This document shows, piece by piece, positions 46,275-48,524 of a stretch of DNA of 64,000 bases (the stretch's first letter is position 1; each line of letters opens with the position of its first letter). The notes beneath the pieces are model-generated. The model was not told where the DNA came from, made no database searches, and was given only the letters and a program-made list of their open reading frames with translations. Source of the stretch: Hyphomicrobiales bacterium (GTDB lineage: Bacteria; Pseudomonadota; Alphaproteobacteria; Rhizobiales; Rhizobiaceae); contig UBNV01000003.1 of NCBI GenBank assembly GCA_900466945.1, positions 372,001 through 436,000 on the forward strand, read 5' to 3'. The translations under genes and the position numbers were made by a program.

Positions 46275-47012
46275 ATGACGAACCAGGACATGGCAGCTGC
46301 CGCCCGCGTCGAAGGCCTGATCGCCGATGTGAAGGGCTTCAAGACCCAGTTCGATGTCTTCCGATTCATGAAGCGCGTAACCGAAGTTTATGGCGCTCGT
46401 GCCTTCATGGTGCTCAACATGCCGGGTTCCACCGCCCAGGATCTGAGCAGCAGCTCGATCATCACCAACTGGCCGGCCGATCTTCTGACGGAATTCGATC
46501 AGGTCTCGCTTCTGGCGGGAAGCCCGGTGCTGGCGCATCTGCGTCGCTCCTCGATCCCGCTGCGCTTCGACATCGACGATGTGGCACTTCAACGCGACCC
46601 CAAGTCCGGTGAAATTTCCAAGGCGCTCTTCACGCGTTTCCGGATGAACCGCGGGGCCTATTTTCCCGTCCATGACGCGGCCGGCGCGCGGGGGGCCATT
46701 TCCTTCATCGGAGATCGCGAGCATTTCGATTCGCGCGAGATGATGGAGCTGGCCTATCTCGCAGCCCATATTTTCAATCGTCTCGCCGAGATCCGCGAGA
46801 TGGACAGCCGCGGCAGCGACATGCTCACCGAACGCGAGCTCGATTGCCTGAACTGGACGGCCGCCGGTAAGACCAGTGTCGAGATCGCCGAGATCCTTAC
46901 CCTCTCGGAGCACACAATCAATCACTACCTCAACAGGGCCACCAAGAAACTGGACGCGGTGAACCGCACCCAGGCTGTCGCCAAGGCGCTGCGTCTCGGC
47001 TTGATCAAGTAA
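46275..47012 (+). CDS. LuxR-family regulator with unusual autoinducer-domain residues
   Basis: 245 residues. N-terminal autoinducer-binding domain (about 15-165) and C-terminal LuxR HTH (180-240: LTERELDCLNWTAAGKTSVE then IAEILTLSEHTINHYL). By alignment with TraR, the ligand-binding Trp57, Tyr61, Asp70 and Trp85 correspond to Leu70, Phe74, Ser83 and Phe98; only Pro84 (TraR Pro71) is kept. No luxI-type synthase is nearby, so it is a LuxR solo that may bind a non-AHL ligand. The start codon lacks a strong ribosome site. Confidence 0.88.
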   Translation: MTNQDMAAAARVEGLIADVKGFKTQFDVFRFMKRVTEVYGARAFMVLNMPGSTAQDLSSSSIITNWPADLLTEFDQVSLLAGSPVLAHLRRSSIPLRFDIDDVALQRDPKSGEISKALFTRFRMNRGAYFPVHDAAGARGAISFIGDREHFDSREMMELAYLAAHIFNRLAEIREMDSRGSDMLTERELDCLNWTAAGKTSVEIAEILTLSEHTINHYLNRATKKLDAVNRTQAVAKALRLGLIK

Positions 47013-47132
47013 GTGTAAACGCTGGTGCATTTTTGTGCGCCATGCCTGGGCTCCGCCTGTTTTCCCGGCATCTTGCCTCGTCTCCGAACACGTCCTGCCC
47101 CCCTTCAGCGCCGGTTTCCGGTTCCTTTTCGT

Positions 47133-47149
47133 CTGGCACGCTTCCTGCA
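47133..47149 (+). promoter_or_regulatory. Putative sigma-54 (-24/-12) promoter
   Basis: CTGGCACGCTTCCTGCA matches the sigma-54 consensus YTGGCACG-N4-TTGCW except one base in the -12 element; GG and GC are exactly 10 bases apart. A start at about 47160 would produce the structured RNA just downstream and could also read into mrp. No enhancer site was identified. Confidence 0.5.
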
Positions 47150-47159
47150 TTGCTGGTGG

Positions 47160-47252
47160 AGTCCAGAGGGGACGTTGCACGACACCCTTCAAAGGGTGCA
47201 GCCTGACAAGCCGCCGCGGGGGGTGCTCTCCGCAGGCGGCTTGTCTGTTTCT
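47160..47252 (+). ncRNA. Candidate structured small RNA or mrp leader
   Basis: From the predicted sigma-54 start the RNA would fold into two hairpins: ACCCTT-CA-AAGGGT (47184-47197) and a long stem (47205-47245) of GACAAGCCGCC / GGCGGCTTGTC extended inward by GCGGGG / CTCCGC with one bulged A. The latter is followed by TGTTTCTG, a weak terminator-like tail. No protein frame fits. The remaining parts of the 345-base gap between luxR and mrp show nothing else. It could equally be an attenuator of mrp. Confidence 0.35.
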
Positions 47253-47357
47253 GCGGCAATGGTTGCACCCTCTCCACCGCATTTGCGGTTGGCGAACGCC
47301 TCCCGGTCCATTATCTGGTGTCCCAGACATGCAAGACCGAGCGGAAAGAAAATCGAA

Positions 47358-48524
47358 ATGACCGAGTTGTCGCGTGACCTGGTGGTTGAGGCGTTGAAGG
47401 GGATCCGTGGTCCGGATCTGGATGGAAACATCATCGATCTGGGCATGGTCTCGGATGTCTTCATCTCGGATGCCAAAGTCTACTTTTCGATCAATGTACC
47501 GGCGGAGCGCGCCCAGGAACTGGAACCGCTGCGCCAGGCGGCCGAGCGCACGGTCAAGGCGCTCCCTGGGGTCAAGGGGGCCGTGGTCAGCCTGACTGCC
47601 GAGCGCAAGCAGGGATCTGCCCCGCCACCGCCGCGCCCTCAAGCGGCCGCACCCGCCCATGGCCACGGCCATGCCCATGCCCACAATCACGGACCGGCAC
47701 CAAGTGGTCCGCAACGTACGAAGGCCGGCGTACCTGGCATCGATGCCATCATCGCGGTCGCTTCCGGCAAGGGCGGCGTCGGCAAGTCCACGACCGCAGT
47801 CAACCTCGCTCTGGCACTCAAGGCCAATGGCCTGCGTGTCGGCATTCTCGATGCCGACGTCTATGGTCCGTCCATGCCGCGCCTTCTCGGCATTTCGGGC
47901 AAGCCGCAGCAGATCGAGAACCGCATCATCGTGCCCATGGAGAATTACGGCATCAAGGTCATGTCGATGGGCTTCCTCGTCGACGAAGGCACAGCCATGA
48001 TCTGGCGTGGCCCGATGGTCCAGTCGGCGCTCATGCAGATGCTGCGCGAAGTCGCCTGGGGCGACCTCGACGTGCTCGTCGTGGACATGCCTCCTGGCAC
48101 CGGGGATGCCCAGCTGACCATGGCCCAGCAGGTGCCGCTGTCCGGTGCCGTCATCGTTTCCACGCCGCAGGATCTTGCCCTGATCGACGCCCGCAAGGGG
48201 CTCAACATGTTTAACAAGGTCGAAGTGCCCGTGCTCGGCATCGTCGAAAACATGAGCTACTTCATCGCTCCGGACACGGGCAACCGCTACGACATCTTCG
48301 GTCATGGCGGTGCGAAGACCGAAGCCGAGACCATCGGGGTGCCCTTCCTCGGCGAGGTTCCGCTCACCATCTCCATCCGCGAAACGTCGGATGCCGGAAC
48401 GCCCGTTGTCGTCAGCGAGCCCGACGGTCCGCAGGCGAAGATCTACCGCGACATCGCCACGAAGGTCTGGGAGCAGGTGAAGGCCCGTTCCGGACGCGTC
48501 GCCCCCTCGATCGTCTTCGAATGA
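47358..48524 (+). CDS. mrp: Mrp/ApbC-type iron-sulfur carrier ATPase
   Basis: 388 residues. N-terminal DUF59/MIP18-like domain (1-80), a His-rich linker (residues 101-111, alternating H with G/A/N), and a P-loop ATPase with GKGGVGKST (137-145) and VVDMPPGTGD. Where E. coli Mrp and Salmonella ApbC carry the CxxC that holds the cluster, this one reads APDTG (304-308). The start ATG follows GGAAAG. Family role is Fe-S cluster delivery in the cytoplasm; the cysteine loss makes the mechanism unclear. Confidence 0.93.
   Translation: MTELSRDLVVEALKGIRGPDLDGNIIDLGMVSDVFISDAKVYFSINVPAERAQELEPLRQAAERTVKALPGVKGAVVSLTAERKQGSAPPPPRPQAAAPAHGHGHAHAHNHGPAPSGPQRTKAGVPGIDAIIAVASGKGGVGKSTTAVNLALALKANGLRVGILDADVYGPSMPRLLGISGKPQQIENRIIVPMENYGIKVMSMGFLVDEGTAMIWRGPMVQSALMQMLREVAWGDLDVLVVDMPPGTGDAQLTMAQQVPLSGAVIVSTPQDLALIDARKGLNMFNKVEVPVLGIVENMSYFIAPDTGNRYDIFGHGGAKTEAETIGVPFLGEVPLTISIRETSDAGTPVVVSEPDGPQAKIYRDIATKVWEQVKARSGRVAPSIVFE

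Follow-up and report, generated by a model that had tools for sequence, protein, structure and literature searches.

In the window, by which we mean the whole 64,000-nucleotide stretch of DNA that was analysed, a luxR gene is followed by an intergenic stretch and then by mrp, corA and kup, and the features recognised in and around the intergenic stretch are listed in Table 1. From published synteny we take the LuxR-type gene to be AviR-like (SMc00877-878-like). The element CTGGCACGCTTCCTGCA follows the general −24/−12 consensus of sigma-54 promoters with a single departure from TTGC at −12, and when C47148 is taken as the −12 base the +1 nucleotide falls on A47160. The preliminary description of this DNA had proposed a GG-N10-GC promoter with one mismatch at −12 and a transcript start at about 47160; the former is borne out at CTGGCACGCTTCCTGCA, and the latter is supported by the geometry of the promoter, which stands at the correct distance from the RNA start.

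Table 1. Features of the luxR-mrp interval and the genes that flank it (positions in the window).
Feature	Positions	Strand	Remarks
LuxR-type regulator	46275–47012	+	Pfam PF03472 (autoinducer-binding) and PF00196 (GerE); upstream neighbour of the RNA
Predicted NtrC-type enhancer site, TGGTGCATTTTTGTGCG	47023–47039		PWM score 9.7; centre 103 bp upstream of the promoter TGG
Possible second, weaker enhancer, CGCCTGTTTTCCCGGCA	47054–47070		By-eye match to the relatives' CGCCTAGTTTCCCGGCA
Sigma-54 −24/−12 promoter, CTGGCACGCTTCCTGCA	47133–47149	+	GG-N10-GC; found in all 30 genus loci read
Small RNA, about 91–93 nt	47160–47250	+	Start inferred from the promoter
Hairpin 1, GUCC-AGAGG-GGAC	47161–47173	+	Nearly invariant; unchanged in 25 distinct genus sequences
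Hairpin 2, CACCCU-UCAA-AGGGUG	47183–47198	+	Stem form kept, sequence variable
Rho-independent terminator with U-rich tail	47205–47252	+	Terminator-like structure in relatives
Conserved block directly 5′ of mrp	47278–47316	+	Separate matches of 81–88% identity in 6 genus genomes
mrp/apbC, Fe-S cluster carrier	47358–48524	+	NF008669 above cut-off; PF10609, PF01883

The stretch 47160–47260 has a folding energy of −54.3 kcal/mol, against −39.3 ± 3.9 kcal/mol for shuffled sequences (z = −3.86; 0 of 200 shuffles as low), and the opposite strand of the RNA region gives z = −2.24 with 4 of 200 shuffles as low. The terminator stem (47205–47245) consists of 11 bp, one bulged A and 7 further bp, and is followed by the tail UGUUUCU, which reaches 47252. 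No Rfam 15 model matched the window at its gathering score, and the matches below threshold near the RNA, none better than E 0.11, were to models of microRNAs and of one lncRNA; of 14 related loci searched against Rfam, only that of one family member gave a match, a terC leader (RF03067; L062:11–72) away from the RNA. The idea of a repeat element was rejected, as the RNA's own genome has one strong copy and the next covariance-model match has an E value of 0.54. The preliminary description had also seen no protein frame here; strictly, an open frame (47025–48524) does cross the RNA in the mrp frame, but it is not kept in the genus, where 24 of 30 loci have a stop in that frame between the RNA start and mrp and 6 are open. 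Because of these stops the frame is very unlikely to code and the coding reading was rejected; open-frame lengths on their own are mixed and do not settle the question.

The gene for this RNA is real and is conserved across many Rhizobiaceae. Within the genus, a DNA search matched the RNA region in 38 of 63 genomes, and a pattern made of the promoter and the 5′ hairpin (UCC-RGAGG-GGA) was found in 48 of the 63, its reversed control in none; the two pattern-negative genus genomes that were inspected by eye (G050 and G054; loci L158 and L165) bear the RNA at mrp with longer spacing. The best 30 genus loci all have the promoter and AGUCCAGAGGGGAC, at a distance that differs by one or two bases at most. 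Among the named contigs that bear the block are those of Rhizobium rosettiformans, R. daejeonense, R. cremeum, Ciceribacter selenitireducens and Agrobacterium albertimagni. The DNA search also matched a contig labelled Arenimonas (a MAG, L032) that bears a rhizobial luxR and the RNA and is probably misbinned.

At the family level, a covariance model that did not include the promoter found the RNA, under strict filters, in 27 of 297 genomes (18 of 109 genera), and all 25 of its matches outside the genus have the promoter TGGCAC-N6-TGC just upstream. The exact promoter plus hairpin pattern is present in 67 of the 297 genomes (26 of 109 genera), again with no match to the reversed pattern, so the double-hairpin observation of the preliminary description stands, promoter and hairpin being kept beyond chance. 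One copy is present in 66 of these 67 genomes and two in the other (G292, 9% contaminated). Since the exact pattern fixes the hairpin, we also inspected the regions upstream of mrp in 20 pattern-negative family genomes, hand-chosen among the best Mrp matches: 10 hold the promoter and hairpin with other spacing or small variants (loops GGAGG and ACAGAGG; stem changes, with the stem of L173 altered on its 3′ side) and 10 do not. Two of the 20, G239 and G333, were already covariance-model matches; G239 is one of the 10 variant holders, and G333, like G116, bears the RNA elsewhere than at mrp. Outside the family, 376 genomes of the order were scanned with a looser pattern, whose reversed control matches 1 of 397 genomes; it was found in 4, of which one (G464) looks genuine and the other three look like chance matches.

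Structure was surveyed in 110 distinct loci, all chosen by promoter and hairpin, with a median RNA length of 108.5. The spacer from promoter to hairpin is 13–17 bases long in every one, although the pattern permitted 6–19. In hairpin 1 the fourth pair is G-C, A-U or G-U and is paired in 106 of 106 cases, a value attained in 0 of 1000 shuffles. The third pair (104 of 106) does not exceed the shuffles, and there is no support for a fifth (53 of 106). Hairpin 2 has a stem of at least 5 bp in 81 of 110 loci, compared with 27 of 110 when shuffled, and a terminator-like stem is present in 104 of 110, with 51 different 5′ arms (shuffled controls, 11 of 60). In the genus alignment, covariation exceeds the controls in part only: there are 11 double-change cells against 3.7 in shuffles, but 3 double-change pairs against 2.4, and 260 of 500 shuffles reach 3. 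The compensating changes on which the double-hairpin claim had been made to depend are thus modest within the genus; across the family, stems with many different sequences persist. The terminator of many family members holds a CCCGGAUGNACGG-type hairpin (for example L106–L108, L116–L119, L141–L144, L146 and L152–L154), and a GGAUGUA loop is reported, in the available passages of one paper, in relatives of SmelB053 and in cold-shock 3′ ends (PMC3927594).

An activator was sought in the DNA upstream of these promoters. De novo EM search of 76 thinned upstream regions returned a 17-bp palindrome, TGCnyAwwwwnTrnGCA (TGC-N11-GCA with an AT-rich centre), with a log-likelihood of 342.7 compared with 23.6 for base-shuffled regions (15 starts for the shuffled control, 40 for the real data). 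Scored on the same 76 regions that trained it, the matrix exceeds 7 in 74 of 76 regions (7.5% of shuffles) and 10 in 64 of 76 (1.7% of shuffles). The centres of 65 of the 74 best sites lie within 70–120 bp upstream of the promoter TGG and are periodic at 10.5 bp (R = 0.419, p about 2 × 10−6, a value that is too optimistic because best-scoring sites from related genomes were used), as expected of an activator that would bind on one face of the helix. Outside the training set, the matrix finds a site before the own genome's glnK-amtB (score 19.8, centre −92; the −12 element of the glnK promoter is an imperfect TTGA) and two before its glnB-glnA (12.9 and 12.7, centres −166 and −186). TGC-N11-GCA with an A/T-rich centre is given as a putative NtrC motif in the accessible part of a published study (PMC10746234), and because the palindrome equals this signature and scores at the genome's own glnK-amtB and glnB-glnA promoters, NtrC is the likely activator.

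The upstream NtrC site is strong at the family level, and the window copy by itself is weak (9.7): a score of 9 is exceeded by 2.4% of shuffled upstream regions. The genome's own nas promoter is weaker still (8.2). For the possible second site, the score of 10.7 is that of CGCCTAGTTTCCCGGCA in one relative (L016). Control of the RNA by NtrC and sigma-54 is nonetheless likely on this pattern of sites. The literal string TGCNYANNNNNTRNGCA (TGCNYAN5TRNGCA) occurs at chance in the own genome (12 sites; control 11), and therefore only the weighted score was used, near sigma-54 promoters. Simple enterobacterial NtrC strings occur upstream of 5 and 11 of 108 loci (1.9 and 4.4 expected) and were dropped in favour of the de novo motif, as they gained little over expectation; a NifA-type string is at chance (3 of 108; 3.5 expected). 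At the end of contig C16 of the own genome (L183) a sigma-54-like promoter, CTGGCACGCTTCCTGCTT, lies about 200 bp after a site TGCCTATTTTATGGGCA, near the contig end.

Is the RNA a leader of the gene that follows it? The preliminary description had left open a leader controlling mrp; with such a leader, readthrough of the terminator would set the level of Mrp under sigma-54. The mrp gene starts 105 bp past the RNA tail in the window, it follows the RNA in all 30 genus loci and in 32 of the 66 from the family, and a terminator with mrp directly after it could still be an attenuator. However, the strong terminator closes the RNA before mrp, and a separate conserved block (query positions 178/179 to 217/220 of the DNA search), perhaps mrp's own promoter, stands in front of the gene. 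The order luxR-RNA-mrp is found in the fetched stretches of 29 of 30 genus loci, the other having a NasS-like gene upstream of the RNA and mrp, but linkage to mrp is not constant in the family: of 66 loci, 28 have the luxR-RNA-mrp order, 4 combine mrp with a different upstream gene, in 6 nasS stands upstream, and the other 28 show neither, so that 34 of 66 show no mrp within the fetched 1.5–2 kb. Some of the loci without mrp have a convergent neighbour; examples of the remaining surroundings are urtE with a convergent sulfur-transport gene and a phosphoesterase gene with a convergent adenylate cyclase gene. Given this varied neighbourhood a stand-alone RNA fits better, and we regard the mrp leader as very improbable. 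The connection to Fe-S cofactor supply that had been drawn through mrp is likewise unsupported, as the RNA persists in genera that show no mrp downstream in the fetched stretches.

The RNA's surroundings also include nitrate-assimilation genes, a link that is suggestive. Seven genomes have, just 3′ of nasS, a leader that opens with this promoter and 5′ hairpin (L056, L059/L102, L060/L112, L100, L101, L131 and L145) and is followed, in those read, by nrtA-, narK- or nirB-like genes; in some genera, then, NasT/ANTAR nas leaders have these two elements in common with the RNA and continue with a hairpin and terminator. This common head can therefore serve in cis. By the definition of the ANTAR hexaloop as A at position 1 and G at position 4, as stated in the accessible text of PMC3369931, five of the seven nas leaders contain such hexaloops. 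Five more nas leaders that the covariance model picked up (L066, L068, L071, L075 and L076) have GGCC-type hairpins in place of the RNA's 5′ hairpin. In L030, L031, L036, L039 and L158 (L030 and L036 are one contig fetched twice) the RNA stands between a NasS-like gene, its immediate upstream neighbour, and mrp. The product of this gene is 35–39% identical to the own genome's NasS, luxR lies beyond it in L031, L036 and L039, and no nasT match was found in the fetched stretches of L030/L036, L031, L039 and L158. In L129, one of the 28 family loci with neither neighbour, nasTS lies directly 3′ of the RNA. An ANTAR protein is present in 58 of 67 RNA-positive family genomes and in 142 of 230 RNA-negative ones. 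The own genome also encodes a second ANTAR-domain protein (C33:141900, L090; a 334 aa open frame), which has transporter-like genes around it and may be a regulator of the AmiR type.

These observations could mean that the RNA descends from, or spawned, a nas-operon leader and serves NasT, the ANTAR antiterminator, as decoy or helper. The shared head, the hexaloops of five nas leaders, the neighbouring nasTS or NasS-like genes and the greater frequency of ANTAR proteins with the RNA agree with this reading, but an A1/G4 hexaloop is found at hairpin 2 in 1 of the 103 loci outside nas, which often lack any co-directional operon, and the loops in the window are AGAGG and UCAA, unlike those of an ANTAR (NasT) target. 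Furthermore, the own genome's nas leader (L089:7856, minus strand) has a sigma-54 promoter and a hexaloop that was read by eye as AACGGC (A1, G4), but lacks the GUCCAGAGGGGAC hairpin, and in 9 of the 67 genomes with the RNA no ANTAR protein turned up; of these nine, one is 79% complete and one 9% contaminated. Because of the loop count and these nine genomes the NasT decoy was dropped as the main reading, and we think it unlikely. A nitrogen-starvation RNA that shifted between cis nas leader and stand-alone trans RNA, and that still tunes NasS-NasT beside mrp, where it may act as a decoy, either for NasT or for some partner of the NasS-like proteins, is also rather doubtful. A further possibility, that the G-rich loop (R-GAGG-GG) is a sponge which captures the anti-Shine-Dalgarno sRNAs MmgR (alpha-r8) and NfeR1 (alpha-r14), draws on the ability of GAGGGG to pair with CUCCUC (worked by hand), on the presence of CCUCCUCCC in NfeR1, which, in the available passages, forms a loop with NtrBC (PMC10746234), and on CrfA of Caulobacter, which captures alpha-R8 sRNAs according to the part of the paper available (PMC12559287). 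The pairing would nevertheless comprise just 6–7 pairs, including G-U, and part of the pairing sequence sits in the stem of hairpin 1, and we consider this quite improbable.

Among described RNAs, SmelC165 (RFMSmelC165) of Sinorhizobium meliloti comes closest in its description: the accessible passages give a single-copy, trans-encoded sRNA of 116 nt with a predicted RpoN promoter (PMC7143759) that is Rhizobiaceae-wide with complete microsynteny, has a stem with a poly-U tail, and lacks relatives in A. tumefaciens and A. radiobacter (PMC3927594). The RNA studied here likewise has a predicted RpoN promoter and a stem with a U-rich tail; its relatives in genus g30 are about 110–119 nt long (crude ends), it is present once in 66 of 67 genomes and matched in 4 of 376 outside the family, and its luxR-RNA-mrp microsynteny is kept in 29 of 30 genus but 28 of 66 family loci. 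The names given in the available text to SMc00877/878 (AviR-like LuxR proteins; PMC5977203) and SMc00873 (kup 1; PMC9505113) agree with the window order luxR-mrp-corA-kup. We conclude that the RNA is probably a relative of the uncharacterised SmelC165, with which it was compared by published length, promoter class and distribution. The passages available on SmelC165 mention neither an activator or enhancer nor a function or a relation to nas, and a literature search, whose coverage excluded most subscription papers, returned no statement that NtrC controls it or of what it does.

Several other described RNAs have features in common with this one. NrsZ and NalA of Pseudomonas are NtrC/RpoN-dependent non-coding RNAs of nitrogen control; they belong to other bacteria and loci. 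MmgR of S. meliloti is an NtrC-activated sRNA with predicted RpoD and RpoN promoters in the text available (PMC7143759), but its 77 nt and anti-Shine-Dalgarno loop set it apart, by the descriptions, from an RNA with a GAGG loop. CrfA, likened to the RNA by description as a starvation-induced non-coding RNA, answers carbon starvation and not nitrogen in the passages at hand, and is a possible model of action on sRNAs only.

Taken together, these features make it fairly probable that 47160–47250 is a stand-alone sRNA gene driven by NtrC and sigma-54 whose product acts in trans in nitrogen stress, and not an mrp leader. Of the two readings first offered, that of a small RNA of some 92 nt under sigma-54 is thus well supported, with NtrC added as its probable activator. 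Under nitrogen limitation, phosphorylated NtrC would bind about 100 bp upstream of the promoter and activate the sigma-54 polymerase, giving a terminated RNA of roughly 92 nt. This RNA probably acts in trans, and could do so through the AGAGG loop of its nearly invariant 5′ hairpin or through a protein bound there, which would make it part of the nitrogen stress response.

To our knowledge, NtrC and sigma-54 are known to drive few rhizobial sRNAs. A conserved sRNA under such control, nearly always present in one copy, would give the nitrogen stress response of the Rhizobiaceae an RNA arm. If SmelC165 is the same gene, the RNA is open to deletion and assay at once in S. meliloti, and the recurrent link to NasS and NasT could reveal how the leader of an operon turns into a stand-alone sRNA, or the reverse.
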